Assembly (NCBI GenBank): GCA_004144175.1
Contig: SEFT01000002.1
Coordinates: 1-64,000 of the forward strand
DNA: 64,000 nt
Source: Sphingobacteriales bacterium
GTDB lineage: Bacteria; Bacteroidota; Bacteroidia; Chitinophagales; Chitinophagaceae
Reading direction: 5' to 3'
The notes beneath the pieces were generated by a model. The model had not been told where the DNA came from. It made no database searches and was given only the letters and a program-made list of their open reading frames with translations. Made by a program: the position numbers and the translations under genes. Below, piece by piece: positions 1 through 12,876 of the stretch; the stretch's first letter is position 1, and the number at the start of each line of letters is the position of its first letter.

Positions 1-34
1 CCAAAATAATCCCGCTTCCCCCTTCCCCCTCCCG

Positions 35-53
35 TATATTTGAATTATCTTTG
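35..53 (+). promoter_or_regulatory. Two overlapping-range Bacteroidota -7 boxes
   Basis: TATATTTG (35-42) and TATCTTTG (46-53) both match the Bacteroidota -7 consensus TAnnTTTG. They lie 31-49 nt upstream of the ATG of the E1 gene. No convincing -33 TTG is visible because the upstream sequence is a C-rich tract at the window edge. One of the two probably drives the E1 gene. Confidence 0.5.
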
Positions 54-83
54 TAAATCATTTGAAATAATAGTACTATATAT

Positions 84-2474
84 ATGCTGCAGGAAGTAAC
101 ATCTCCCACGTCATCAAAACTATCTTTCGACGAGTTCAAAGCCGAAGTACTGAAGGACTATCGCATGGCCGTAGCCAGCCGCGAGGCCAGCCTCATAGGC
201 CGCCGCGAGGTGCTTACGGGCAAGGCTAAATTCGGCATATTCGGCGATGGTAAAGAACTAGCACAGATAGCCGCAGCAAAGTGTATGAAGCCGGGCGACT
301 TCCGCTCGGGCTACTACCGCGACCAGACGCTGATGTTTGCCACAGGCATGAGCGATATTGAAAAATTCTTCTCGCAGCTATATGCCAACCCCGATACGGA
401 GAACGAACCTGCTACGGGCGGCCGCATGATGAATGGCCACTATGGTACCCGCTGGCTCGACGACAATGGCGACTGGAATGACCTGACACAGCAACCCAAC
501 TCATCGAGCGACATCTCCCCCACTGCCGGCCAAATGGTGCGCGCACTGGGCCTTGCCTGTGCATCGAAGATGTACCGCAATGTACCCGAAACGCAGCAGG
601 GCTTTGAGAAGTTCACCAAAGGTGGCAACGAGGTAGTATTCTGCACTATCGGCGATGCATCTACATCTGAAGGCCTGTTCTGGGAAACCGTGAATGCGGC
701 AGGCGTGCTGAAAGTGCCGCTGGCGATCTTCGTTTGGGACGATGGCTATGGCATATCCGTACCGCGCAAATATCAAACAACCAAGAACTCCATCTCACAA
801 GCCCTTGCAGGTATGCAGTGGGACGAAGAGACCGGGGGACTGAACATATACCGTGTAAAAGGTTGGGACTATGCAGGCCTTGTCGATACCTTCCAGAAAG
901 GCATCGACCACATACGCCGCACGCATACCCCTGCTATCTTCCACGTGCAGGAAGTAACACAGCCGCAGGGCCACTCTACCTCGGGTTCGCACGAGCGCTA
1001 CAAGAGCAAAGAGCGCCTTGACTGGGAAAAAGAATGGGATTGCGTAACGAAGATGCGCGAGTTCATCACCGAGAACAACATCGCGGTTGAAGAAGAGATA
1101 GTAGCGCTGGAAAACGAAGCCAAAGACGAAGCCCGCGCCAGCAAGCAGCGTGCATGGGATGCCTTCGTAGCGCCTATCCGCGCACAGATACAACGAGTAA
1201 CGGACCTTTGCAATGCTGTAACCGCAGAAGGCGCATCAGCCGAAATAGGTACATTGGTGCAGCAACTAAACGCCATTAAGGAGCCGATCCGCAAGGATGT
1301 AATGCAGACGCTGCGCAAGGTGCTGTCTAAATGCAATGTAAGCTCAGCAGCGGTCGACAATCTGCGTAACTATTACAGTACACTCCTAGAGGATAATAAA
1401 TCACGTTTCAGCTCACACCTGCATTCCGAGTCGGCGCAGAGCGCTATGAAGGTGCAGGAGGTAGCCCCCGACTTCTCCGACGATTCGCAGATGCTCAACG
1501 GCTACGAGATACTTAACAAGTACTTCGACCTCACCTTCGCATCCAACCCTGCCGTAGTAGCATTCGGCGAGGACCTTGGTAAGATCGGCGACGTAAACCA
1601 AGGCTTTGCAGGCCTGCAGGAAAAATACGGCGAACACCGTATTTCCGATACCGGCATCCGCGAGGCCACCATCATTGGTCAGGGCCTGGGTATGGCCATG
1701 CGCGGCCTGCGCCCAATAGCCGAGATACAATACCTCGACTACCTGCTTTACGGCCTGCAACCCCTCAGCGACGACGTGGCTACCTTGCAATACCGCACCA
1801 AAGGCGGCCAGAAATGTCCGCTCATAGTACGTACCCGCGGCCACAGGCTCGAAGGCATCTGGCACAGTGGCTCGCCCATCGGTATGATCATCAACAGCAT
1901 CCGCGGTATGTACCTCTGCGTGCCTCGCAATATGACGCAGGCTGCCGGTATGTACAACACCCTGCTAAAAAGCGACGAGCCGGGCATCGTTATCGAGTGC
2001 CTGAACGGCTACCGCCTGAAAGAAAAAATGCCCGATAACCTGGCTGAATACACCGTACCATTCGGCGTACCGGAAGTGATCCGCGAGGGCAATGATATCA
2101 CCATCGTGTCTTACGGTTCTACGCTCCGCGTTATCGAGGAGGCCATCGTAAACTACCTGGAGCCACAGGGCATCTCCTGCGAGGTAGTAGATGTGCGTAC
2201 CCTGCTGCCGTTCGACATCAACCATATCATCGTAGAGTCGCTGAAGAAAACCAGCCGTATCGTCTTCATCGACGAAGACGTGCCAGGTGGCGCTACCGCC
2301 TACATGTTCCAGCAGGTGATGGAAAAACAAGGCGGCTATAAATGGCTCGATGCTACCCCGCGTACCATCAGCGCACAGGCTCACCGCCCTGCCTACGCTA
2401 CCGATGGCGACTACTTCAGCAAGCCCAATGCAGAAGACATCGCAGCAGCTATCGAGGAGATCGTAAAAGAGTAA
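84..2474 (+). CDS. Fused 2-oxoacid dehydrogenase E1, alpha and beta subunits in one chain
   Basis: Thiamine-diphosphate-dependent E1 component of a 2-oxoacid dehydrogenase complex, which decarboxylates a 2-oxoacid and transfers the acyl group to lipoylated E2 in the cytoplasm. Residues 1 to about 400 are the alpha subunit, with the ThDP motif GDASTSEG near residue 190. From about residue 470 the beta subunit begins (GYEILNKYF, then VVAFGEDLGKIGDVNQGF) and runs to the C-terminus. The two halves are joined by a charged linker. At 796 aa the length fits the fused form common in Bacteroidota, where alpha and beta are separate genes in most other bacteria. Branched-chain 2-oxoacids or pyruvate are both possible substrates; I cannot decide from sequence alone. 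It is followed by a strong terminator and appears monocistronic. Confidence 0.92.
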   Translation: MLQEVTSPTSSKLSFDEFKAEVLKDYRMAVASREASLIGRREVLTGKAKFGIFGDGKELAQIAAAKCMKPGDFRSGYYRDQTLMFATGMSDIEKFFSQLYANPDTENEPATGGRMMNGHYGTRWLDDNGDWNDLTQQPNSSSDISPTAGQMVRALGLACASKMYRNVPETQQGFEKFTKGGNEVVFCTIGDASTSEGLFWETVNAAGVLKVPLAIFVWDDGYGISVPRKYQTTKNSISQALAGMQWDEETGGLNIYRVKGWDYAGLVDTFQKGIDHIRRTHTPAIFHVQEVTQPQGHSTSGSHERYKSKERLDWEKEWDCVTKMREFITENNIAVEEEIVALENEAKDEARASKQRAWDAFVAPIRAQIQRVTDLCNAVTAEGASAEIGTLVQQLNAIKEPIRKDVMQTLRKVLSKCNVSSAAVDNLRNYYSTLLEDNKSRFSSHLHSESAQSAMKVQEVAPDFSDDSQMLNGYEILNKYFDLTFASNPAVVAFGEDLGKIGDVNQGFAGLQEKYGEHRISDTGIREATIIGQGLGMAMRGLRPIAEIQYLDYLLYGLQPLSDDVATLQYRTKGGQKCPLIVRTRGHRLEGIWHSGSPIGMIINSIRGMYLCVPRNMTQAAGMYNTLLKSDEPGIVIECLNGYRLKEKMPDNLAEYTVPFGVPEVIREGNDITIVSYGSTLRVIEEAIVNYLEPQGISCEVVDVRTLLPFDINHIIVESLKKTSRIVFIDEDVPGGATAYMFQQVMEKQGGYKWLDATPRTISAQAHRPAYATDGDYFSKPNAEDIAAAIEEIVKE

Positions 2475-2495
2475 TCAGAACAGAATTACATATTG

Positions 2496-2526
2496 AAAGC
2501 CCGGCCCCGCGCCGGGCTTTTCTTTT
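2496..2526 (+). terminator. Rho-independent terminator of the E1 gene
   Basis: AAAGCCCGGC (2496-2505) pairs perfectly with GCCGGGCTTT (2511-2520) around a 5-nt loop, followed by a T-rich run, 21 nt after the E1 stop codon. Confidence 0.9.
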
Positions 2527-2589
2527 CACATTTCGTTGACGGAGGCCAAGGCTGTTTTTCCGTAATTTTATTGGAAACAAAGCACATAC

Positions 2590-3045
2590 ATGAACCTCAA
2601 ACGAATCTTCCTGTTCCTCTTACTGGCAGGAGGCATCATTACCACTAACCTCGCCAACGCACAGGACAAGCTGGAGCAACAGATACTCGTCCTCGTCAAC
2701 CAATACCGTGCAGACCATAAGCTGCCACCTCTCGAGCTGTTCAACACCATCAACACCGCTGCCGAAAAGCACAGTGGCGATATGGCCAGCAAGCGCGTAC
2801 CCTTCGGCCATGCGGGCTTCGATGCCCGTATCGACGGACTACTCGACAATATAAAAGGCGCCGAAGCAGCCGCCGAGAACGTAGCCTACGGCCCCACCAC
2901 CGCCGAAGAGGTAGTAAAGATGTGGATCGCTAGCAGTGGCCACCGCAAGAACATCGAAGGCAACTTCAACCTCACCGGCATAGGCATAGCCCAGGATAAG
3001 AACGGACGCCCTTACTACACGCAGATATTTGTGAGCAAGAAGTAA
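2590..3045 (+). CDS. Secreted CAP-domain (SCP/PR1-like) protein
   Basis: A 151-aa exported protein. Residues 1 to about 24 are a signal peptide (basic start, hydrophobic core, ANA-Q cleavage-like site). The rest is a single CAP domain: LVNQYRADHKLPPLE at the first helix, HSGDMA carrying one conserved His, ENVAYG with a conserved Glu, and WIASSGHRKNIEGNFNLTGIGIA carrying the second His and the final strand. Bacterial CAP proteins of this size are secreted, and their biochemical role is mostly unknown. It has its own spacing from both neighbours (115 and 52 nt), so it could be transcribed alone or with the DoxX gene downstream. Confidence 0.9.
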   Translation: MNLKRIFLFLLLAGGIITTNLANAQDKLEQQILVLVNQYRADHKLPPLELFNTINTAAEKHSGDMASKRVPFGHAGFDARIDGLLDNIKGAEAAAENVAYGPTTAEEVVKMWIASSGHRKNIEGNFNLTGIGIAQDKNGRPYYTQIFVSKK

Positions 3046-3097
3046 GCGCTGGCAGTATTAATATGCAAGTACTATCTTAGCGCCACAACATCAGTAC

Positions 3098-3505
3098 ATG
3101 GCATTATTCACCAAACTCTCAAAATACTCTGCTACAGGCCTGCTCATTATGCGCGTAGGGCTGGGCATTATGATGGTGCTGCACGGCTACCCGAAGCTGG
3201 CCGGAGGGTCGGGCAAGTGGGCTAAGATAGGCGGCGCAATGGCCAACATGGGCGTAACTGCCTACCCCGAGATATGGGGCCTTATGGCCAGCCTGGCAGA
3301 ATGCCTCGGCGGCGTGTTCCTCATACTTGGTTTCTTCTTCCGTCCCAGTTGCTTGCTGCTGCTGTTTACCATGATCGTAGCGTGTATGAGCCATCTGGCT
3401 GGCGGCGACGGCATTATGGGCGCATCACATGCTATAGAGCTGGGCATCGTGTTCCTGGGGCTGTTTATACTGGGGCCGGGTAAGTATTCAATCGACAAGA
3501 GCTAG
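3098..3505 (+). CDS. DoxX family integral membrane protein
   Basis: A 135-aa protein with four predicted membrane helices and the DoxX family pattern: LIMRVGLGIMMVLHGYPKL in helix 1, GLMASLAECLGGVFLILGFF in helix 2, and an aliphatic third and fourth helix ending ELGIVFLGLFILGPGKYSID. DoxX proteins are small inner-membrane proteins. Some are linked to quinone or sulfur oxidation and redox stress, but most, like this one, have no assigned substrate. The ATG at 3098 is well placed, and a strong bidirectional terminator follows 16 nt after the stop. Confidence 0.88.
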   Translation: MALFTKLSKYSATGLLIMRVGLGIMMVLHGYPKLAGGSGKWAKIGGAMANMGVTAYPEIWGLMASLAECLGGVFLILGFFFRPSCLLLLFTMIVACMSHLAGGDGIMGASHAIELGIVFLGLFILGPGKYSIDKS

Positions 3506-3520
3506 TATATAAAACGACAT

Positions 3521-3565
3521 AAAAGAAAAGGCCTGCCGATGTATCATCAGCAGGCCTTTTCTTTT
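3521..3565. terminator. Bidirectional terminator between doxX and the receiver-like gene
   Basis: A 16-bp perfect inverted repeat, AAAAGAAAAGGCCTGC (3521-3536) with its complement at 3550-3565, flanked by A and T tracts on opposite sides. It can terminate the plus-strand DoxX gene and the convergent minus-strand gene at 3588. Confidence 0.92.
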
Positions 3566-3587
3566 CGTTATATATAGCGAACTACAC

Positions 3588-4019
3588 TTACGCTCTTGTG
3601 GCGTACAATGAAGTAGGATAGTTTCCGTGCAGCTTCACGCGTTTGCGTTTGGTGAAGGCTGTATCAGCCAGTAGTGCCGTTTTAATGCTGTCTATTACGT
3701 TGTCGCATATCATATTGCGCTTGTCGCGGCTGGCGGTGCGCTTGCGGTTCACCAGGTACACATCGTCTTCCGACAGCGTGTATATCACCGGCAGGCTGGC
3801 GTAGTGTATATTATCCAGCAGCTCGTGGTATACCTTGGTGCTGCTCAGGCCCGGAGCATCGGGGTTTACAAATACCACCGACGGTTTTATTTCTTCGATC
3901 ATCTCGCTTACTATATTATCGCTGCAGGTATATACGGCAAAGCCCCTGTCTCTCAGCATCTCTGCGTCCGGCGCCAGATATTCGGCATTGTTGCCCACCA
4001 TCAGTATCCTTATACGCAT
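3588..4019 (-). CDS. Degenerate response-regulator receiver-like protein
   Basis: A 143-aa single-domain protein whose N-terminal 115 residues follow the receiver fold: RIRILMVG (strand 1), a helix, GFAVYTC (strand 2), PSVVFVNPD (strand 3), and LPVIYTLSEDD (strand 4). The phosphoacceptor Asp that normally ends strand 3 is replaced by Asn (FVNPDAPG). The acidic pair after strand 1 is also lost (GNNAE), while a Thr/Ser remains at the strand-4 switch position. So phosphorylation is unlikely, and this looks like a pseudo-receiver with a basic C-terminal tail. No histidine kinase or output domain is adjacent. The fold assignment is by pattern only. Confidence 0.6.
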   Translation of the reverse strand: MRIRILMVGNNAEYLAPDAEMLRDRGFAVYTCSDNIVSEMIEEIKPSVVFVNPDAPGLSSTKVYHELLDNIHYASLPVIYTLSEDDVYLVNRKRTASRDKRNMICDNVIDSIKTALLADTAFTKRKRVKLHGNYPTSLYATRA

Positions 4020-4087: not shown

Positions 4088-4351
4088 CTATATATTCGTC
4101 AATCTATTTATCAACATTATTTGATATAGATTGTGAACCAGCTCTTTACAATCGTTCATCCTTACGTTCGCCATTATCAGCATCTGTTGAGTGATCTCGC
4201 GCTCTATATTAAAGAAGTGCTTTAAGATGACCATCAAAACCCCAACACAAAAATTGCTACTCATACCCTTGGTTATTACTGCTCTTATTAAATTTCTTTT
4301 CTCTTTACTATAAGACAATAAAACTCCGTGCCAAGGTTTGCAGCCGTTCAT
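4088..4351 (-). CDS. Small uncertain ORF with weak ClpS-like pattern
   Basis: An 87-aa ORF in AT-rich sequence, ATG preceded by an A-rich stretch. I do not recognise it with certainty. Part of it, KPWHGVLL and then ILKHFFNIEREITQQMLIM, resembles the order VLLNDD ... VLxKFF ... E.ATQxML of the ClpS N-degron adaptor. The NDD signature and the GKA/CG region are not preserved, and an insertion would be needed. It may be a decayed ClpS-like gene, or the likeness may be chance. An internal ATG at 4264 is an alternative start. Confidence 0.3.
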   Translation of the reverse strand: MNGCKPWHGVLLSYSKEKRNLIRAVITKGMSSNFCVGVLMVILKHFFNIEREITQQMLIMANVRMNDCKELVHNLYQIMLINRLTNI

Positions 4352-4721
4352 TTTCTTTGATTACTATGACAATAGATATATGCATAGCCATAAATTAAAA
4401 CCAAGCATATTTATATATCCTGATAATTAGTGCAGCAGTAACAATTTTGTTAAAAATTGGGGAAAGATTTTTTGCAGCAGAGGCCGGGATGGCTATTAAC
4501 CGTCCGTTGCGTCGCACTCTTGTGCGTTTGGGAAGTCTACTTAGCTGTAGTCATTAAATATAAAAAAACAAATGCTTGCAAACAACACTACATGACAGCC
4601 TAAATGTATTGTAACAGTATTTGAAATACCCATGTATAATACAAGAGCATTTAAAGGCATTAGCGAACAACTTGTAGTTGATCCTTGCTATGGGCAGCAC
4701 AAGGACAAAGCTAATTACTAT
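4352..4721. other. Gene-free AT-rich spacer at the left edge of the accessory island
   Basis: About 370 bp with no ORF worth calling on either strand. Base composition drops sharply compared with the E1/DoxX region. The only recognisable item is the short dispersed repeat at 4514-4537 and the GC-richer block around it (4480-4545). No tRNA or integrase remnant was seen. Confidence 0.6.
4514..4537 (-). repeat. Dispersed repeat, copy 1 (inverted relative to copy 2)
   Basis: Read on the minus strand this is GACTTCCCAAACGCACAAGA followed by GTGC. It matches 21 of 24 positions with the plus-strand sequence at 10311-10334. It includes a small hairpin, CGCAC TCTT GTGCG. The two copies lie close to the two edges of the AT-rich accessory block, in opposite orientation. 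Confidence 0.6.
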
Positions 4722-5510
4722 CTATAAAGAACTAGTAGCGGCAACCTTATAATTTTCTTCAATTTCCTTAAATGACTGCTCCAAATGGTTCTCCTTAGCA
4801 ACTTCAAATGCTTTTCGTTCGCTATCCTTGCAATTCAAATAAAATTCCCTGTTCACATACTCTAGGAGCTCATCTCGAAAGTTTTCTATAATTAAGAAAA
4901 CTATTGATCTCAGCTTTTCGATATCTTTTAATTTTAAGTCAAATTCCTGCTGTTTACTGCTATCAAAGTCGCTCCCGTGACCAATTGAATTCCGGTTGAG
5001 CAAAAGATTACTATTAATATAATGTTCTCTCGTTGACAGAGCATTTTTATAGTTAAGACCAAGAATAGACAAGATTTTCTTGAACACCTTAGGTTTTAAA
5101 TTTGATTCTGTGTCGATGATGCTGTTATCTTGATCTCCATCAATTTTTACGTTGATTTTAAATTTCAAATCTTGATACTTCAAGTATTTGTCAATAAAAT
5201 CTAATTCGTTTACCAATGATAAGCTTTCTTTATTCTCAATACAGCGGCTAACATGCTGCTTCAAAACAATAGCCTTAAAGTTTACGCACAGATCACTAGT
5301 TTTTAATTTTTTTTCAGATACATATTTGATATATAGCTTAGAACTTTTTTTTATATACCCTTCCCAATGAGCGTACAATAGTAGAATAAGAGACTTAAGT
5401 ATAACTGTTTTTTCGCTTTCAGACTTTGCAATTAACATCAATTCCGAAATCTCTTTTTTTCTCCAAGCTAGATCCTCATCTAAATTTTTTTCAAATTGCT
5501 CATCCCTCAT
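4722..5510 (-). CDS. HEPN ribonuclease-like protein, MAE_28990 type
   Basis: A 262-aa all-helical protein. The N-terminal part (EDLAWRKKEISELM, then a long helix with ILKSLILLLYAHWEGYIKKSS) matches the MAE_28990/MAE_18760 HEPN family as I know it. Around residues 172-178 it carries LNRNSIGHG, the R-x4-H motif that in HEPN RNases supplies the catalytic Arg and His, so it may be an active RNase. The ATG overlaps the end of the DUF262 gene by 4 nt (ATGA), indicating translational coupling. HEPN proteins of this kind are found in toxin-antitoxin and abortive-infection modules; that role is inferred here from the neighbours. AT-rich and unlike the flanking housekeeping genes. Confidence 0.75.
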   Translation of the reverse strand: MRDEQFEKNLDEDLAWRKKEISELMLIAKSESEKTVILKSLILLLYAHWEGYIKKSSKLYIKYVSEKKLKTSDLCVNFKAIVLKQHVSRCIENKESLSLVNELDFIDKYLKYQDLKFKINVKIDGDQDNSIIDTESNLKPKVFKKILSILGLNYKNALSTREHYINSNLLLNRNSIGHGSDFDSSKQQEFDLKLKDIEKLRSIVFLIIENFRDELLEYVNREFYLNCKDSERKAFEVAKENHLEQSFKEIEENYKVAATSSL

Positions 5511-6613
5511 ATTTGGAAAAATCTTTTTGAAAATGCAGTTAGACCTTGGATACGAGGTACAGCCTTTATTCCCCGTGCGGAATGCGTGAGGTACTCTTCG
5601 TTTTCATACATTTCCTTTATCTTATTTACAAATGCTCTAGGCGTCATTTTGTTTACCTTATTTATGTTCTGAGCAACTCCTGGCGTTATGGCCTCAAAAC
5701 TCGAAGCAAGAAACTGCCCTTCAAACACCTTTTTTTCAAAGTTATATTTCTTAAATGCGTTCCCTTTCAACGTTGATGCAAGCCAATCGAACGTCTTCTT
5801 AAATATTTTTATTTCGGTATCTAAGTCAAAGCTTTTATCCTCTATAAGGTTTGTAGTTTCTGCATCAATGAATTCGCTTAAGAGAATGTTTGCCCTTTTG
5901 TATTTGGAAAAATCAACCTTACCATATTTAGCTATAAAATATCGGAGAATGAGCTCCATATGAAACTCAATTTTGAATCTCTCATCTTGAAGAGGCAGGG
6001 TCTCAATAAAACTCGGATAGTTTTTTAGTTCATTTATCTTATCATAAAACCCAGTATTCAACATTATAATAAGACAATTTCTTATCTCTTGGGGTTCTAA
6101 ATGCAATCCCCCCGTGTTTAGCCGCTGGAATAATTCGTACTGTGCTTGAATACTATTTTCTGTAAGAATGATATTGACTCCTAACTTGGATCGTCTTAGT
6201 ATTCTTTTTATTTCATCCGGAAGTGTGGTCCAATCAAAGCCCTCTAACGAAGGTAATTTTTTAGTCGTGGTCAATTTGAGTGGATCATATCCTTTAAGTT
6301 CTGCTGTAAGTTGCAAAATTGTTGAAATTCGCTGTACGCCATCAACAATGCTCCATACGCCTCCCTGTTTCTGTGCAACGAAAATTGGTGGAATTGGGAT
6401 ACCAAGTAGTATTGACTCAATAAACTTTGATTTTTGTTCATCGTCCCACCTGAATAGACGCTGATAGGCGGGGTCTAGCTCTAGTTCATCGTCCTTATAC
6501 AGGTTAATTAGTTCGCCGATAGACATGCTATACCCATCAGTCTTAATATTTTTTCTTTCTTGACTTAATTCCTTAAGTAGTGCCCCTTCGTTGTGTGTGC
6601 TCTTAGCTTTCAT
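5507..6613 (-). CDS. DUF262 (ParB/GmrSD-N-like) protein without an HNH domain
   Basis: A 368-aa protein. Residues from about 30 to 200 form the DUF262 domain: ELDPAYQRLFRWDDEQKSKF, a GIPIPPIFV strand, and the family signature VDGVQR (a D-G-Q-Q-R variant) near residue 90. The DUF262 domain is the NTP-binding part of GmrSD- and SspE-type anti-phage proteins. Those usually carry a C-terminal DUF1524 HNH nuclease, which is absent here: the rest (to residue 368) is a helical region without an H-N-H pattern. The open frame extends to 6679 and into the upstream gene, but the ATG at 6613, 28 nt after the restriction-modification stop, is the better start. The next gene (HEPN) could supply the nuclease activity in trans. 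Confidence 0.8.
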   Translation of the reverse strand: MKAKSTHNEGALLKELSQERKNIKTDGYSMSIGELINLYKDDELELDPAYQRLFRWDDEQKSKFIESILLGIPIPPIFVAQKQGGVWSIVDGVQRISTILQLTAELKGYDPLKLTTTKKLPSLEGFDWTTLPDEIKRILRRSKLGVNIILTENSIQAQYELFQRLNTGGLHLEPQEIRNCLIIMLNTGFYDKINELKNYPSFIETLPLQDERFKIEFHMELILRYFIAKYGKVDFSKYKRANILLSEFIDAETTNLIEDKSFDLDTEIKIFKKTFDWLASTLKGNAFKKYNFEKKVFEGQFLASSFEAITPGVAQNINKVNKMTPRAFVNKIKEMYENEEYLTHSARGIKAVPRIQGLTAFSKRFFQI

Positions 6614-6641
6614 ACGGTTTATTTCAATAAGATTAGTATCA

Positions 6642-9134
6642 TTAAGTAAAGTTATCGTGGTCCAAAAAACGATCTCCATTAAAATGAATCATGTGGGTGG
6701 GATTATCCGCGATCCAAACTTCAGTCTCCCATGAAATATCTGCAAGATATTTTGTCATCGTTTTCTTGTCGGGAAAGGCTGTTACATACACCAAACCAGC
6801 GGTTGACATTCCGAATAGTTTTTGTAGTTCATCATAACGTTTTCCATCTACAGGTCCGTGACTAGTTACAGCTTCTATTAAGTAGAGCCAGTTTTGTCTG
6901 CTATCATATAAAATCACATCTGGCATTTTTCCATGATCTTCGGCCCTTACACCTAATTTCATCAATTCATCCTTAGCTTGATCTATTCCTTTATTAGCAG
7001 TATCTCCTATATATAATACTTGGGAACTGGGAGCAAAGTTTTTCGTAAAATCTAATATAATATCTTTTATAAGCTTGCTGTGCTGTCCGGGCGACAACCT
7101 GCCGATGATTTCATTGTTTTGTTCAATTACCACGTGTTCAACATCCCGCTCCATTGCATACCTTTTTACTAAACTAGGTTGCTGTTCCAGAAATCTCTTT
7201 AAATTTAAATCCCAATCTCTCGTATTGAAAGATTTTAGAAGATTAAATGCCTCTGAAGTTAACTGGTAACATGCTTTAGGTGAATTTATCGGCCGGTTAG
7301 GATTATCTGGATTATAAACAAGAATACCTGCCGATACAAATTGATGTAAAGTTTGTCGCCGAAAAGCTTCACGAGTGTTAGGCGCGTATTGTTTATGGTA
7401 ATAAACTTTGCACCATTCCATAATAGGCGTTACTCCTAACATTGGACATTGTATATCATGCCAATTACCTGTAGGCAAATGTTGCGATAATGCCAATAGG
7501 GTTAACGCCGATCTCTCATTAATTTGGGCTTTAGGTAATTCTAACTGCTTTAATATAGATACTGCATTTTCAATTTTTTCCTGAATTTGCAGCGTGATAT
7601 CTGAAATGCGCTTTCCTGTCATAGCAAATATTTCTCTACTGACGATATAGTCTATTTCTTTGTGCGTAAGTGATAAATTTATAATTTTTTCCCCTATTCG
7701 CTTAAGAGTGTTAAGGTCGGGATAAGGAAGTGCTCTTAGATCAGTGGCATTAACCTGAGTATGCCCTCCAAACTGTCTGTAATATTCATCTAATAATGTA
7801 CTGTTGAGATACCCAAATAGTCCTTTAGCTAGAGTCTCATCTAACCCTCGTTTATTATGGTGAAAGACATTTAGCTTGTTCTCAAAACCTATCAAATCAA
7901 ATGGTAATTTTGAATCGTAAAAAGTAGCAACAATTCGCTTTCTTTCCTCCTTACTTGAAAATCGTTTTACTATTACGTAGGAACCTTTGTTTTGCCACAA
8001 TGACGATAAGGTATGAGAATTGCAAATTATCCAGTCGGGTTTACGGCCCTCTTTGGGCCAAGTCACTTCGTTGCCTAAATGGACAGGGTACAACAAGGGT
8101 ACTGCATTGTCTTTAAACTCATGGCTTAAAAAATCAGCTACCCGAAAATCGACGACTGCGCCTGTACTTACCTCAATATCTAAATCTTTTAAACTTGACT
8201 TAAAACTCGATAAGCTATTTACTACAATTTGTTCCCGCTCTGAGGCTGCAATATGTATAAATTTTTGTTGGTCATTAGGATTTACTACACTGTCCATATC
8301 GACTTCTCTAACGGTCATGTCTGATGCAACAAATTCTTGGCTTTCTATATCATAATGGAAATCAGCAGAAGGACTCGAAGTTATTTTTACTTTTTTCTCT
8401 TGGTTGCTTTTTTCGCAATAGATAATGACATTCTCTTGTAATACGTCATCAAATGTATTCTCCCGATGATCGAAAATGTGAATCTGTCTAATTGACGTTT
8501 CCTTCAATAGTAAATCTCTGAAGTGGTAGTAATATGGACCGTTACAAAAAGATCTAGGTATAATTGCAACCATTTGCCCATTAGGTGCCAATAGTTTAGT
8601 GGCTAACGCAATAAATCCAGAATATAAATTTACGGTTTCAATACCCACGCGTCTAAGCGCCATACGATGATCACTAGTTGAATTCAGCTTTTTATACGGC
8701 GGATTCATTATTACGTGCGTATATGGCTGTTCTATCTTATGGCTAGAAAGAAGGCTCGAACTATGTAAAATGAAATCTTTTAAATTGAATTGCGACTTGA
8801 ATTTTATCCCTCGTATTCCTGTCTCATATTCACATGCCGTTAATGTTTGCCTCACAAAGGGCTCAACTATTGGCTCAATATCATACATATCAATCTCAAA
8901 ACTAGAAACGTTCTTCTGCTGAATTAGATTATCTGCAAATGCGGCAGATAATGAACCTATTCCACATCCAGGATCTAGAAGTCGAACATCCCCTTGTATG
9001 GTATTGAACAAGCTTGCCATAAATTGACATACAGGAAGAGGCGTATAAAACTGGCCAAAAATTGATTTCTTTTTGGGATCTAATAAGCCATTTACTTTCA
9101 GTCTATTTTCTTCAGTTATACTACTAATCAACAC
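6642..9134 (-). CDS. Fused type II restriction-modification protein: N6-adenine methyltransferase plus PstI/BsuBI endonuclease
   Basis: An 830-aa single-chain R-M protein. Residues 1 to about 450 are an Eco57I-like N6-adenine methyltransferase: GQFYTP at 27-32, SAM motif LDPGCGIGS at 53-61, catalytic NPPY at 144-147, then a target-recognition-like part. From about residue 520 the sequence matches BsuBI/PstI endonucleases: a winged-helix part (REAFRRQTLHQFVSAGI, RPINSPKACYQLT) and the catalytic part (IGDTANKGID, PDVILYDSRQNWLYLIEAVT with Glu about 754, then WETEVWIAD). In the PstI and BsuBI systems methylase and nuclease are separate genes; here they are one polypeptide. PstI/BsuBI cut CTGCAG, so that site is a guess for this enzyme. 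GTG start at 9134 with a stop four codons upstream; TTG 9131 is an alternative. First gene of the R-M/DUF262/HEPN operon. Confidence 0.88.
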   Translation of the reverse strand: MLISSITEENRLKVNGLLDPKKKSIFGQFYTPLPVCQFMASLFNTIQGDVRLLDPGCGIGSLSAAFADNLIQQKNVSSFEIDMYDIEPIVEPFVRQTLTACEYETGIRGIKFKSQFNLKDFILHSSSLLSSHKIEQPYTHVIMNPPYKKLNSTSDHRMALRRVGIETVNLYSGFIALATKLLAPNGQMVAIIPRSFCNGPYYYHFRDLLLKETSIRQIHIFDHRENTFDDVLQENVIIYCEKSNQEKKVKITSSPSADFHYDIESQEFVASDMTVREVDMDSVVNPNDQQKFIHIAASEREQIVVNSLSSFKSSLKDLDIEVSTGAVVDFRVADFLSHEFKDNAVPLLYPVHLGNEVTWPKEGRKPDWIICNSHTLSSLWQNKGSYVIVKRFSSKEERKRIVATFYDSKLPFDLIGFENKLNVFHHNKRGLDETLAKGLFGYLNSTLLDEYYRQFGGHTQVNATDLRALPYPDLNTLKRIGEKIINLSLTHKEIDYIVSREIFAMTGKRISDITLQIQEKIENAVSILKQLELPKAQINERSALTLLALSQHLPTGNWHDIQCPMLGVTPIMEWCKVYYHKQYAPNTREAFRRQTLHQFVSAGILVYNPDNPNRPINSPKACYQLTSEAFNLLKSFNTRDWDLNLKRFLEQQPSLVKRYAMERDVEHVVIEQNNEIIGRLSPGQHSKLIKDIILDFTKNFAPSSQVLYIGDTANKGIDQAKDELMKLGVRAEDHGKMPDVILYDSRQNWLYLIEAVTSHGPVDGKRYDELQKLFGMSTAGLVYVTAFPDKKTMTKYLADISWETEVWIADNPTHMIHFNGDRFLDHDNFT

Positions 9135-9343
9135 GGAAAGAAGTCACAATTTTTTGCTAAGATAAACGATTTCCCTGCTGGCATGAGAACGCAGTTTGGT
9201 GTACACATGTATTATTCGCGCGCTGACCCGAGAATTAGGTTTAGCGATTCGCACTGTGTCCTTGCGCCAATAATAAATGCGCGAGTGTGCTATGCACAAG
9301 TTACCTCCGCACCTACGCCAGCAAATTTTCAATAGCATTAAAG

Positions 9344-9394
9344 AAAGGGGGTGTACCATTTGCCTTCCCAATTTTCAATAGGGCAACTTTACGG
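9344..9394 (+). promoter_or_regulatory. Duplicated leader element, copy 1
   Basis: AAAGGGGGTGTAC (9344-9356) and GCAACTTTACGG (9383-9394), separated by 26 nt, end 21 nt before the DUF4373 ATG. The same two blocks with the same 26-nt spacing recur at 10408-10458. A direct repeat AATTTTCAATAG (9324-9335, 9370-9381) is interleaved in this copy only. Probably a promoter or translational leader; the function is inferred only from conservation and position. Confidence 0.55.
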
Positions 9395-9415
9395 CACACA
9401 AAAACCTTATCGATT

Positions 9416-10138
9416 ATGGGCAAGGTCAGAACCTTCCGCCACCCCGTGCAGCCCCTTTCCGACGACCGTATCTCTATCCTCATCGCCGAGCGCGGAGCCC
9501 TTGGCTATGGCGCTTACTGGATGGTGCTGGAAGCCCTGTACCGCGAGCCGTCGATGCAGCTACCCTACGACGAAACCTGCCTGCGTAAGCTATCGGCACA
9601 TACAGGCATCAGCCTGCACGACTTCCGCTGGTTGCTGGACGATATGATAGAAGTTTACGGCCTGCTCGTGGTGCACGACAATTGCCTGTCATCGACCATT
9701 GCCTACCGCAAGCCGCCCAAGAGCGCCGCGCCATCGGTACTATCCACAGCACCCGCGGCCATCAGCGAAACGCCCGGGAGCCAGCCGGCTACACGCCGCC
9801 CTGCCCCGCAAGCCACTACACCCGCCGTTGATACAAATGATATTCCGCTTGAAGTGTTCCTGCACCCCGAGCTACCCTATACCGTGCCGCAGCTACGCTT
9901 TTACGACCGGCTAAAGAAATACATAGATGCCAAAGCGCCGCGGGTAGCAGAGATGAGGCAACCCCTCACCCGCGACCAGGTTGTGGAGATCGGCAACAGC
10001 GCTTACCACGATGCCCATATACACGCCATCGTCGATGCCATGAACACCGAGGCCCGGCTCCACACCCGGTTTACTTCTGCGTATGACGCGTTTAAGTATT
10101 TCGCTACGGTAGTGCCGATGAAGACCAAGCCTGCCTAA
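9416..10138 (+). CDS. DUF4373 (Lin1244/Lin1753 N-terminal) domain protein
   Basis: A 240-aa protein. The N-terminal 90 residues match DUF4373: FRHPVQPLSDDRISILIAE, RGALGYGAYWMVLEALYRE, LPYDETCLRKLSAHTGI, then FRWLLDDMIEVYGLLVV, a winged-helix fold known from phage replication or initiation proteins. A Pro/Ala/Ser-rich linker (about 100-150) leads to a helical C-terminal part. The frame is open from 9287, but the ATG at 9416 follows the duplicated leader and begins the recognised domain. It is higher in GC than the R-M operon and lies on the opposite strand. It suggests phage or plasmid ancestry of this part of the island, but no other replication gene is nearby. Confidence 0.75.
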   Translation: MGKVRTFRHPVQPLSDDRISILIAERGALGYGAYWMVLEALYREPSMQLPYDETCLRKLSAHTGISLHDFRWLLDDMIEVYGLLVVHDNCLSSTIAYRKPPKSAAPSVLSTAPAAISETPGSQPATRRPAPQATTPAVDTNDIPLEVFLHPELPYTVPQLRFYDRLKKYIDAKAPRVAEMRQPLTRDQVVEIGNSAYHDAHIHAIVDAMNTEARLHTRFTSAYDAFKYFATVVPMKTKPA

Positions 10139-10145
10139 TAGAGAT

Positions 10146-10286
10146 CGTCATTACGAGCGAAACGCAGTGAAGCGTGGTAATCTCCCTAGCGTTTGCAGTC
10201 CGTGCAATCACGGCGTCCATTACTCCGATGATGCCTATTGCATAGGCTCAGGAGATACCCACGCTCGTACCTCGCTCGGTATGACG
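10146..10286. repeat. Long imperfect palindrome (REP/MITE-like)
   Basis: The left arm 10146-10185 starts CGTCATTACGAGCGA and ends GCGTGGTAATCTCC. The right arm 10251-10286, read on the minus strand, starts CGTCATACCGAGCGA and ends GCGTGGGTATCTCC. The arms of about 36-40 nt enclose a 65-nt loop. The wording (CGTCATTxCGAGCGA ... AATCTCC) is typical of dispersed intergenic repeats in many bacteria. There is no coding capacity and no clear target-site duplication by eye. Confidence 0.7.
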
Positions 10287-10310
10287 GCCTTGATGAAAGC
10301 TCGCTCAGGA

Positions 10311-10334
10311 GACTTACCGAACGTACAAGAGTGC
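10311..10334 (+). repeat. Dispersed repeat, copy 2
   Basis: GACTTACCGAACGTACAAGA followed by GTGC matches the minus-strand copy at 4514-4537 at 21 of 24 positions, with weaker likeness continuing 3'. The short word GCTCAGGAGA at 10305-10314 also occurs at 10247. This is near the right edge of the accessory block, in opposite orientation to copy 1. Confidence 0.55.
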
Positions 10335-10407
10335 CCCGAAGGGTCGGGATAAACTCTGCAACGGAGGCCTAATAGTAGCAGGTCCGCAGGCTGCAAAAAG
10401 AACAAAC

Positions 10408-10458
10408 AAAGGGGGTGTACATCCGTGCATCTCTGCCGGAACATCCGCAACTTTACGG
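10408..10458 (+). promoter_or_regulatory. Duplicated leader element, copy 2
   Basis: AAAGGGGGTGTAC (10408-10420), 26 nt, then GCAACTTTACGG (10447-10458), identical in both blocks and in spacing to 9344-9394. Here it ends 19 nt before an ATG (10478) that opens a low-complexity ORF. The spacing conservation suggests a functional unit rather than chance. Confidence 0.55.
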
Positions 10459-10477
10459 GTTAAATACCTGCTGCGCT

Positions 10478-10762
10478 ATGCCCTATCATACCAACATTAC
10501 CACCACCCGCCTGCACCCCGCCAATCCGCAAAATTGGCAGAATTTACAGCCACTCCACGGCAGCACAGCAGCAGCGCAACACCAGCACAACGGCAGCACA
10601 GCGCCACCACAACAGCAGCCCAGCAGCAGCACAACGACAGCTTTACAGCAGCTTTACAGCACCGTACGCAAAGGGGAAGCAGGTACCATACCTCCACCAT
10701 ACCGCTACCGAAACTATGTTTCCGCTCTGCAAGCGCTACCACCACCCCAAAACAGGGTGTAA
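10478..10762 (+). CDS. Low-complexity small ORF downstream of leader copy 2
   Basis: A 94-aa ORF rich in Gln, Ser, Thr, Ala and Pro, not a family I recognise. Its ATG stands at the same place relative to the duplicated leader as the DUF4373 start, which is the main reason to call it. The middle (about 10557-10660) is made of CAGCAC-type short repeats, including ACGGCAGCACAGC at both 10557 and 10590. The other forward frames are also open here, as expected from such repeats, so the real frame is uncertain. It may be a decayed or repeat-expanded gene. Confidence 0.3.
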   Translation: MPYHTNITTTRLHPANPQNWQNLQPLHGSTAAAQHQHNGSTAPPQQQPSSSTTTALQQLYSTVRKGEAGTIPPPYRYRNYVSALQALPPPQNRV

Positions 10763-10942
10763 ATCATAGAGATACGCCAGTTTGGCACCGGCCCGGAAAC
10801 GGCCCCACTACCCGGTTAGTAAAAATATGCGTACATATAAATTCTGAAACATAACTTTACTGTAAGAATAGAGACCGGCTGAGCAAAGCCACCTGCCCAA
10901 AAGCGAACGACGACCGCAGGTTTTCTTTATTCAGTACCATCT

Positions 10943-12250
10943 ATGGCACTTGATATTTTTATCACACTTTTCCTGGTTATACTTAATGGATTCTTTGTAG
11001 CCGCTGAATTTGCCATTGTTAAGGTGCGCACCTCGCAAATAGAAGTACAGCCTAATATTAATAAGGCTCTGGCCAAAACAGCCAAGGGCATTGTTAACAA
11101 CCTGGATGCTTACCTGGCGGCTACACAGCTGGGCATCACCCTTGCCAGCCTTGGCCTCGGCTGGGTCGGCGAAGATGTAATGTCGCGGATGATATTGAAT
11201 GCGGTACACTCCTTCAACGCCACGATGAGCGAGGAGACTGCCCATAAGATAGCCGTCCCTATTGCGTTTGCCATCATCACGGTGCTGCACATCATATTTG
11301 GCGAGCTGGCCCCTAAGTCGCTGGCTATACGCTACCCCACTACTACTACGTTTGCGGTGGCCTGGCCGCTCAAGGTGTTTTACTTTGTGTTCCGCCCGTT
11401 CATCTGGAGCCTCAATAACATAGCTAACCTGATACTGAAGCTCTTCGGCATCAAGCCCATACATGGCAGCGAGATACACTCGGAGGAAGAGCTGAAGATG
11501 ATCATCAGCGAAAGCCAGGAGGGCGGCGCCATCGAGCAGACCGAGCGCGAGCTGATACAAAACGTATTCGACTTCGACGACCGCCGGGTATCCGACATCC
11601 AGACGCTGCGCAAGAACATCACCGGTATCGACATCAACCTGTCGGTAAAGGAGGCTATTGACTTTGCCATTAAAGAAGGCTACTCGCGCTACCCTGTATT
11701 CGAAGAGACCATCGACGATATCAAGGGTATCATCTATACCAAAGACCTGATGAGCACCATGGTATCGAACCCCGGGGCAGTGTCTATCAGGCCGCTCATA
11801 CGCAAGGCCTGCTTTGTGACCGAGAATAAGAAGATAAAAGACCTGTTGAAAGAGCTGCAATCGCGCCGTATGCAAATGGCCGTTGTGACCAATGAAATAG
11901 GCGAAGTATCGGGCATAGCCACTATGGAAGACATACTGGAAGAGCTGGTTGGCGAGATACAGGATGAGTACGATAACGAGAAGCCATACGTAGAGAAGAT
12001 CAGCGACGACACCTTTATAGTAAGCGCCCACCGTAAGCTGTCCGACATCAACAAGTACCTGCCCTACCGCTTCGAGGAAGATGAGCACTACGAAACCCTT
12101 GCAGGCTATATAGCCGATAATCACCCTAACGACCTGGTCGAGAACGAGAAGTTGGTAATGAACGGCTACGAGATAACGATCATCAAGATGTACCGCAACT
12201 CGGCCGAGACGGTACAGTTAAAAGTTTCTCAACAAGCAGACGAGGCTTGA
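10943..12250 (+). CDS. Hemolysin-family CorC/CNNM-type membrane protein
   Basis: A 435-aa inner-membrane protein with the usual three parts. Residues 1 to about 190 are the DUF21/CNNM membrane domain (FLVILNGFFVAAEFAIVKVR, QLGITLASLGLGWVGED, IIFGELAPKSLAIRYP). Residues about 200-335 hold a CBS pair (YSRYPVFEETIDDIKGIIYTKD and QMAVVTNEIGEVSGIATMED). The C-terminal CorC/HlyC domain follows (FIVSAHRKLSDINKYLPY, DLVENEKLVMNGYEITIIK). Members take part in magnesium or cobalt efflux and ion homeostasis; true hemolysin activity is not established. Length is standard. It marks the return to ordinary chromosome after the island. Confidence 0.92.
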   Translation: MALDIFITLFLVILNGFFVAAEFAIVKVRTSQIEVQPNINKALAKTAKGIVNNLDAYLAATQLGITLASLGLGWVGEDVMSRMILNAVHSFNATMSEETAHKIAVPIAFAIITVLHIIFGELAPKSLAIRYPTTTTFAVAWPLKVFYFVFRPFIWSLNNIANLILKLFGIKPIHGSEIHSEEELKMIISESQEGGAIEQTERELIQNVFDFDDRRVSDIQTLRKNITGIDINLSVKEAIDFAIKEGYSRYPVFEETIDDIKGIIYTKDLMSTMVSNPGAVSIRPLIRKACFVTENKKIKDLLKELQSRRMQMAVVTNEIGEVSGIATMEDILEELVGEIQDEYDNEKPYVEKISDDTFIVSAHRKLSDINKYLPYRFEEDEHYETLAGYIADNHPNDLVENEKLVMNGYEITIIKMYRNSAETVQLKVSQQADEA

Positions 12251-12300
12251 CATATTTAAGAAAAACCACTTAACTTAGTAGTCCACAAAAACGGTGAATT

Positions 12301-12876
12301 ATGTTCGTAAAAACTGATCGGACCACTATTCGTCCGTTTGTCCATGAAGACCTGGATGAACTAAGCAGCCTGTGTGCGCTTACGGAGACAATGGCATTTA
12401 TACCGCCATATTTCGGTCCTGAAACGAGGGAACAGGCAGCAGCCCGCCTGGATAAATACATCAAGCATTACGAGGAGCATGGGGTGAGCTTCGGCCATGT
12501 AGCAAATGATGAGGGCAAGTTTATAGGCCGTGCGGGTCTTTACTTTGTACCGGAGGTAAGCCGCTTTGAGATAGGATATTCTTTGCTGCCGCAGTACTGG
12601 GGGCAGGGCTTAGCCACCGAGATAGCACAGGGTTTGTTAGACTATGCTTTCGATACCCTGAATATGGATAGTGTATGCGCCCGCACCATAATGGGCAATC
12701 AGGCTTCGGAGGCAGTGCTGCACAAGACAGGCTTTAGCTTCCTTGGAGAAAGGGCTTTCCGCCTCGATGACCGGATTTTCTTCTGGAACTATTTCGAGCG
12801 TGATAATGATGACCTGCCTACTTATCGTGAGCAGTCAGCGGGTCAGTTTCAGATGGAAGAGTGGGACTATGTATAG
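12301..12876 (+). CDS. GNAT family N-acetyltransferase (RimJ/RimL type)
   Basis: A 191-aa cytoplasmic acetyltransferase. It starts with the RimJ/RimL-type opening (TDRTTIRPFVHEDLDELSSL) and has the acetyl-CoA binding motif YWGQGLATE preceded by the strand FEIGYSLLP. A later segment, AVLHKTGFSFLGERAFR, is the usual final strand region. The substrate cannot be predicted; relatives modify ribosomal protein N-termini, antibiotics or small amines. It starts 50 nt after the CorC gene and ends with its own terminator. Confidence 0.88.
   Translation: MFVKTDRTTIRPFVHEDLDELSSLCALTETMAFIPPYFGPETREQAAARLDKYIKHYEEHGVSFGHVANDEGKFIGRAGLYFVPEVSRFEIGYSLLPQYWGQGLATEIAQGLLDYAFDTLNMDSVCARTIMGNQASEAVLHKTGFSFLGERAFRLDDRIFFWNYFERDNDDLPTYREQSAGQFQMEEWDYV

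Follow-up and report, generated by a model that had tools for sequence, protein, structure and literature searches.

In this study, we have analysed the first 64,000 nucleotides (nt) of contig SEFT01000002.1 from a Sphingobacteriales bacterium (assembly GCA_004144175.1; hereafter the window), concentrating on three minus-strand genes that, judged by their order, form an operon joining a restriction-modification (R-M) system to a DUF262 protein and a HEPN protein. The first gene (6642..9134, 830 amino acids (aa), GTG start) encodes a fused R-M protein in which a gamma-class N6-adenine methyltransferase (about aa 1-505) is followed by a BsuBI/PstI endonuclease with a helix-turn-helix part (aa 519-656) and a catalytic part (aa 673-820). 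Its stop codon is separated by 28 nt from the ATG of the DUF262/GmrSD_N gene (5507..6613, 368 aa); we placed the start of the latter at this ATG, at position 6613, the mechanically called open reading frame (ORF) beginning at 6679. The DUF262 gene in turn shares a 4-nt overlap, ATGA, with the gene of a MAE_28990-type HEPN protein (4722..5510, 262 aa), a predicted ribonuclease (RNase). In 1-kb windows the G+C content of the operon is 0.33-0.38, as against 0.51-0.55 at 1-4000 and 0.50-0.56 at 9001-12500, and it drops to 0.43-0.51 farther right of 12500. The strand, spacing and AT-richness given in a preliminary description of this DNA are confirmed by these values.

The fusion of methyltransferase and endonuclease in one chain, also proposed there, is borne out by Pfam (BsuBI_PstI_RE 1.7e-58, BsuBI_PstI_RE_N 2.7e-49, Eco57I 1.4e-11, N6_Mtase 8.3e-11) and by the motifs DPGCGIG at residue 54, NPPY at 144 and EAVT at 754. 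Among 32 aligned methyltransferase places (from 35 loci submitted), residues D54, G58 and N144-P-P-Y147 are at least 97% conserved, as is the endonuclease residue E754 among 35 aligned places. The DUF262 protein matches GmrSD_N (PF03235, 2.3e-25), with a ParB/Srx-like nucleoside triphosphate-binding fold and a VDGxQR motif of which D91, G92, Q94 and R95 are invariant in 34 of 34 sequences. Because PF03235 is the sole Pfam family at E<=1, this protein is without a DUF1524/HNH domain, as had been predicted, and we set aside DNA cleavage of the GmrSD type by it. In structure searches its model (pLDDT 90.0) resembles the ParB N-domain 5k5a (E 3.9e-4), with weaker matches to BrxU (7p9k, 8e-3) and to ParB bound to a CTP analogue or CDP. 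As for the HEPN protein, it matches HEPN_MAE_28990 (1.7e-36) and HEPN_RiboL-PSP (2.4e-29), its model (pLDDT 90.9) is nearly all helical, and the R-x4-H motif that the preliminary description had recognised (R173-x4-H178) is invariant in three overlapping sets (12/12, 30/30 and 37/37 sequences), as are E20, Y46, E50, G51 and N137 (30/30). The predicted RNase function is an assignment by Pfam and this motif.

The DUF262 and HEPN genes form one unit. We assembled 80 loci (the window, 11 from genome contigs, 44 from viral contigs, 16 from genome draws and 8 from plasmid or phage records), and in 79 of them a HEPN ORF follows a DUF262 ORF in the same orientation and at most 300 nt away; the exception, L075, sits on a contig that stops within the HEPN gene and was not counted as a pair. 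A few of these 79 pairs have a split or truncated DUF262 or HEPN gene (e.g., L012, L017, L052, L078, L125). The plasmid and phage loci were taken from hits H5, H7-H11, H18, H21 and H35 only. We left out L086, whose DUF262 match stops at the record end, and weak or partial HEPN matches (G152 and G311 of the phylum draw described below; G549 and G760:C161; G1107, G1055, G984 and G1020). In 66 comparisons among 12 of the 14 loci with BsuBI/PstI genes (L052 and L056 omitted), DUF262 and HEPN identities co-vary closely (Spearman 0.92), those of methyltransferase and endonuclease less so (0.61), and those of DUF262 and methyltransferase are loosely related (0.29). For example, L003 and L008 share 64% identity in the methyltransferase and 73% in the endonuclease but 52% in DUF262 and 43% in HEPN, and the pair is placed differently in the two loci. 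Within the plasmid collection a HEPN relative occurs in 4 records, and distant DUF262 matches were found in 125 plasmid and 148 phage records. The window's own genome holds two more distant DUF262 matches, L002 (G000:C15) and G000:C24:220673-221185. Upstream of the pair in L010 lies the gene of a 798-aa protein (L010:4158-6554) for which neither Pfam nor PADLOC gives a match at E<=0.01.

The recurrence of the neighbourhood in other genomes, set beforehand as a test of the preliminary description, was observed in several layouts. Methyltransferase and endonuclease genes, or a fused gene, precede the pair in the window, L003, L004, L005, L055 and L056, whereas in L007, L008 and L009 the pair is embedded in the BsuBI/PstI system in the order methyltransferase-DUF262-HEPN-endonuclease. 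Elsewhere the pair faces BsuBI/PstI genes (L076, and L051 with one ORF between), diverges from them (L081) or stands in mixed orders (L052, L111). The same embedding occurs in an unrelated system, the pair of L015 and L017 lying between an N6_N4 methyltransferase and a MjaI endonuclease, and a plasmid of Corynebacterium carries the pair facing a PaeR7I system (XhoI domain). In all embedded loci, neighbouring genes either overlap or are separated by no more than 7 nt, except at the HEPN gene of L017, which appears broken. The BsuBI/PstI partner named in the preliminary description is not specific, since MjaI, XhoI/PaeR7I and type I systems and other methyltransferases also accompany the pair. 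We therefore rejected the three genes as one fixed system, which is also contradicted by the separate divergence of pair and R-M genes and by pairs for which no partner was found.

Several of these loci have features of their own. The N6_N4 methyltransferases of the MjaI loci (L015:5844-7154, L017:9493-10785) carry a C-terminal SNase-like (PF00565) match. In L052, two BsuBI/PstI-like endonuclease ORFs stand in tandem (L052:8440-10482) next to a single methyltransferase gene and a pair with a split DUF262 gene. In L006, a methyltransferase-DUF262-HEPN operon, the methyltransferase is preceded by the gene of a 216-aa protein (L006:4732-5382), possibly a novel endonuclease, that has no Pfam or PADLOC match. 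The target sites of the three type II partner families, CTGCAG for PstI, CTCGAG for XhoI/PaeR7I and CTAG for MjaI, all start with CT and end with AG, which may be chance.

Using neighbour queries (<=2.4 kb, E<1e-20) that were partly taken from the loci themselves, and so are not independent of adjacency, we found a methyltransferase or R-M gene near the pair in 36 of the 79 loci: BsuBI/PstI in 14, MjaI in 2, XhoI/PaeR7I in 1, a type III res gene in 1, and a gamma-class (15) or beta-class (3) methyltransferase without a recognised endonuclease in the others. By source, such a gene was present in 7/11 loci from genome contigs, 5/16 from genome draws, 19/43 from viral contigs, 4/8 from plasmid or phage records and in the window. 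An independent comparison used Pfam (E<=1e-4) on cluster representatives, setting 123 adjacent ORFs against 123 random ones of the 330 second-to-fourth neighbours. N6_Mtase was found in 15/123 adjacent and 2/123 farther ORFs (one-sided Fisher p=8e-4), and BsuBI_PstI_RE in 10/123 and 1/123, respectively (p=0.005). All three control matches belong to systems that themselves adjoin a pair, namely HsdM in L130, the endonuclease of L081 and the latter half of the methyltransferase in L125. Eco57I (10), N6_N4_Mtase (4) and RE_MjaI (2) were also adjacent to the pair and do not figure in the control among the 25 of 120 families listed, where single matches may hide. Of 395 genomes drawn evenly across the phylum, 7 have a HEPN match, which is full or nearly full in 5 (window included), and in all 5 a methyltransferase or R-M gene adjoins the pair. 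These counts bear on the idea that the pair is a common defence module that lands by chance in defence islands. The many pairs without an R-M gene found nearby, and a KwaB-like gene near L011, would fit such a passenger. We nevertheless hold it to be very improbable, since the enrichment is confined to the immediately adjacent ORF and does not extend to the second to fourth neighbours, the pair is embedded inside operons with short overlaps, and two entire clades have a methyltransferase in every row.

Those clades come from a maximum-likelihood tree of 61 joined DUF262 and HEPN rows, one per 85% cluster, from which L012, L017, L052, L124 and L125 (short or broken) and L088 (long branch) were omitted and to which L087 was put back. 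The two clades, of 14 and 6 rows, both have 100/100 support. Across the tree, the label with or without methyltransferase changes 7 times, compared with a mean of about 20 after shuffling; L130 was labelled as having none despite its type I neighbour and falls outside both clades. The partner itself differs between close relatives: a lone gamma-class methyltransferase in L110 and BsuBI/PstI genes in L111, likewise L063 and L076, and BsuBI/PstI genes in L004 with another gamma-class methyltransferase in L006. What the two clades keep is thus a methyltransferase, and not one particular R-M system.

A further arrangement was found in prophage-like cassettes, where the pair stands tail to tail with a methyltransferase gene, at most 24 nt away or overlapping (L053, L054, L057, L058, L062, L063, L067, L065, L068-L070). 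The methyltransferase is 416-439 aa long in the first seven of these. All but one of these seven also have a Peptidase_S24 repressor gene upstream of the pair, immediately before it in L053, L057, L058 and L067 and with a few small ORFs in between in L054 and L063. Farther out are a KilA-N gene (L058) and an AAA_24 gene (L053). Our endonuclease queries found no match among the ORFs of the cassette loci, L110 and L125, nor was an endonuclease family present among the subset of their ORFs scanned with Pfam, within the parts of the contigs that were read. Where a methyltransferase is present without a recognised endonuclease, a model in which the RNase acts if restriction fails may be an incomplete account.

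Taken together, the frequency with which related modules adjoin or lie inside methylation systems suggests that the R-M and RNase defences work together. With moderate confidence, we favour a reading of the window locus as a type II R-M system, with BsuBI/PstI methyltransferase and endonuclease in one chain, coupled to a DUF262-HEPN abortive-infection module that monitors the methyltransferase or methylation. The R-M protein would methylate its own sites and cut unmethylated incoming DNA, while the HEPN protein would be an RNase effector kept inactive by the DUF262 protein, a putative nucleotide-binding switch of the ParB/Srx type, the two overlapping genes acting as one unit. The module would fire once infection disturbs whatever the DUF262 protein monitors, which may be the methyltransferase or the methylation state of the DNA. 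The reason is that, in the linked clades, a methyltransferase (mostly N6-adenine), and not an endonuclease, is the most frequent constant neighbour. By firing, the module would arrest translation in infected cells, resulting in abortive infection. In favour of this reading are the shared divergence of DUF262 and HEPN and the invariant motifs of both, the embedding, the adjacency counts and the two clades, along with two precedents, the phage defence PD-T4-2 (PMC10952713, PMC9519451) and the PrrC model (PMC3710099).

Several observations weigh against this coupling. The neighbour queries detect neither a methyltransferase nor an R-M gene near 43 of the 79 pairs, or near 36 when only the 66 representatives of the 85% HEPN-identity clusters are counted, and the pair can therefore probably function on its own. 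In a draw of 396 genomes of the order, R-M genes adjoin the pair in only one of five further matches (L081). Draws of 248 and 250 genomes added seven loci (L129-L135), with no R-M system found for five of them, and 20 genomes drawn from one order yielded nothing further. Conversely, BsuBI/PstI domains occur at 34 places in 33 of the 395 phylum-draw genomes, and the pair is present at one of these, the window's; the 33 others are without it, several of them on short contigs, and we rejected the pair as a standard part of BsuBI/PstI loci. For the HEPN protein, PADLOC gives no model at E<=1, which leaves PD-T4-2_B unmatched, and a PDB search with its structure model returned nothing at E<=0.001 and a HEPN toxin only at E 6.8. 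On the other hand, the neighbour queries miss other kinds of R-M: L130, counted among the 43, has its pair convergent with a type I hsdM-hsdS operon (L130:2965-7804), and its cluster mate L131, with an equal layout judged by ORF lengths, probably does as well. The number 43 therefore overcounts loners, and the association with methylation may extend past type II and III systems. The type I neighbour of L130 and the loci without R-M from the additional draws weigh in opposite directions.

The pairs without a nearby partner also fit an independent defence in which DUF262-HEPN senses modified phage DNA, as GmrSD and BrxU do, and complements an R-M system that cuts plain DNA. According to PMC10952713, nucleotide binding in type IV enzymes is the task of DUF262, and BREX is complemented by BrxU. 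Such a sensor leaves unexplained why the pair is embedded between the methyltransferase and endonuclease of two unrelated systems, and why methyltransferases without a recognised endonuclease stand beside it, and we regard it as unlikely. The window protein does share the DUF262 domain and a DGxQR-type motif with GmrSD, BrxU and SspE (the structural match to BrxU being weak) but has no DUF1524 His-Me finger (HNH) nuclease.

The lone methyltransferases invite a different and bolder possibility, a methylation-gated RNase system, which we put forward tentatively: in the methyltransferase-linked clades, the pair itself could be the restriction arm, silent while the methyltransferase is active or self DNA is marked, and turning its RNase on the cell when it meets unmarked DNA or a disabled methyltransferase. 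An endonuclease would then be optional, as is suggested by the prophage-like cassettes of the pair and a lone convergent methyltransferase.

A narrower form of the favoured coupling, and one that does not exclude it, is a guard of the whole R-M enzyme like PrrC, with the RNase freed when a phage anti-restriction protein inactivates restriction. This was proposed in 2013 for R-M-linked HEPN proteins: Section 10 of Anantharaman et al. (PMC3710099) has them restrained by R-M subunits and freed when restriction is neutralised, as back-up RNases. The embedding of the pair in operons of methyltransferase and endonuclease agrees with such a guard, but several methyltransferase-linked prophage-like copies lack a recognised endonuclease among the ORFs scanned, and the types of R-M partner vary, so that the protein contact would need remaking each time; we consider it possible but doubtful. 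Like PrrC-PrrI, the window links a predicted HEPN RNase to R-M as a second line (PMC3710099), whereas PrrC carries an ABC NTPase in one chain and is tied to a type Ic system, and the window has a separate DUF262 protein, a type II system and, by Pfam, no ABC domain on its HEPN protein.

The same source bears on the layered defence of the preliminary description, with DNA restriction first and the RNase as back-up. Its parts were named correctly, the scheme is plausible and the neighbourhood recurs, but the idea is already in Anantharaman et al. (PMC3710099), where operons of this kind are part of a general proposal of multi-pronged defence. A table row there lists the MAE_28990 HEPN "in operon with a ParB nuclease and DNA methylase genes", and the window likewise has such a HEPN, a DUF262 partner of ParB fold and a DNA methylase. 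The three-part combination, which the preliminary description did not recognise as a known system, was in this respect foreshadowed, although the row specifies neither the type of R-M system nor a layout, and has nothing on clade structure or partner swapping. In the open-access literature searched, no paper names BsuBI and HEPN together. Discussions of HEPN back-up effectors and other HEPN systems in PMC12839542 and PMC13092281 do not, in the sections concerned, treat the DUF262-HEPN pair. Judged against this open-access literature, the general idea of coupling R-M and HEPN is old, and it now has layout and phylogenetic support; embedding, partner swapping and endonuclease-less cassettes appear to be new. 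Compared with the usual BsuBI/PstI type II systems, the window has the same methyltransferase motif I and NPPY, endonuclease domains and conserved residues, but joins both enzymes in one chain and adds the pair.

Among known defence systems, one that is close in composition is PD-T4-2, for which DUF262 and HEPN are tabulated in PMC10952713 and which protects E. coli from T4, its deletion raising T4 plaquing (Vassallo et al., 2022, PMC9519451). As in PD-T4-2, the window has DUF262 next to HEPN on the same strand, and its DUF262 protein matches PD-T4-2_A (5.9e-34); the HEPN protein of the window, however, has no PADLOC match at E<=1, and the entries on PD-T4-2 in these two papers describe no R-M partner. 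The best PADLOC match of the window DUF262 protein is NsnA (9.3e-56), whose NsnB model matches an AAA ATPase protein; no NsnB-type AAA/OLD gene was found beside it among the six window ORFs scanned. NsnA is probably the DUF262 protein of Menshen (NsnABC).

In the window, the operon sits on a low-GC, lineage-specific insert of about 6.6 kb (4310..10930, ends approximate) that is absent from two congeners, G573 and G780, because the flanking genes are about 0.94 kb apart in both instead of 7.4 kb. Similarity to these genomes ends near 4264-4309 and resumes near 10940; among 14 other genomes of the genus searched, only these two have both flanks in such an arrangement. Also inside the insert is a plus-strand Lin1244-like gene (9410-10138), flanked by a 17-nt direct repeat (9340-9356 and 10404-10420, 94% identical). 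Between this gene and the insert end, at 10546-10666, a 33-nt unit occurs in nine overlapping copies, set 11 nt apart in register and with 61-73% identity to a reference copy. This insert, together with the plasmids and phage contigs that carry the pair and the overlap of the two genes, would agree with a toxin-antitoxin or addiction role, in which a HEPN toxin and a DUF262 antitoxin stabilise an R-M complex on mobile DNA. R-M systems can be addictive themselves, the invariant nucleotide-binding motif of the DUF262 protein goes beyond the needs of a plain antitoxin, and the similar PD-T4-2 is a phage defence, for which reasons we give addiction little credence.

In conclusion, R-M systems are usually seen as self-contained DNA cutters. 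If the coupling that we favour is true, DNA methylation would be able to license a suicide response that targets RNA. The basis for this wider reach is the presence of one predicted RNase pair with unrelated methyltransferases, inside operons of methyltransferase and endonuclease, and, as it seems, with a methyltransferase alone on phage contigs, and the loci named here represent direct test cases.

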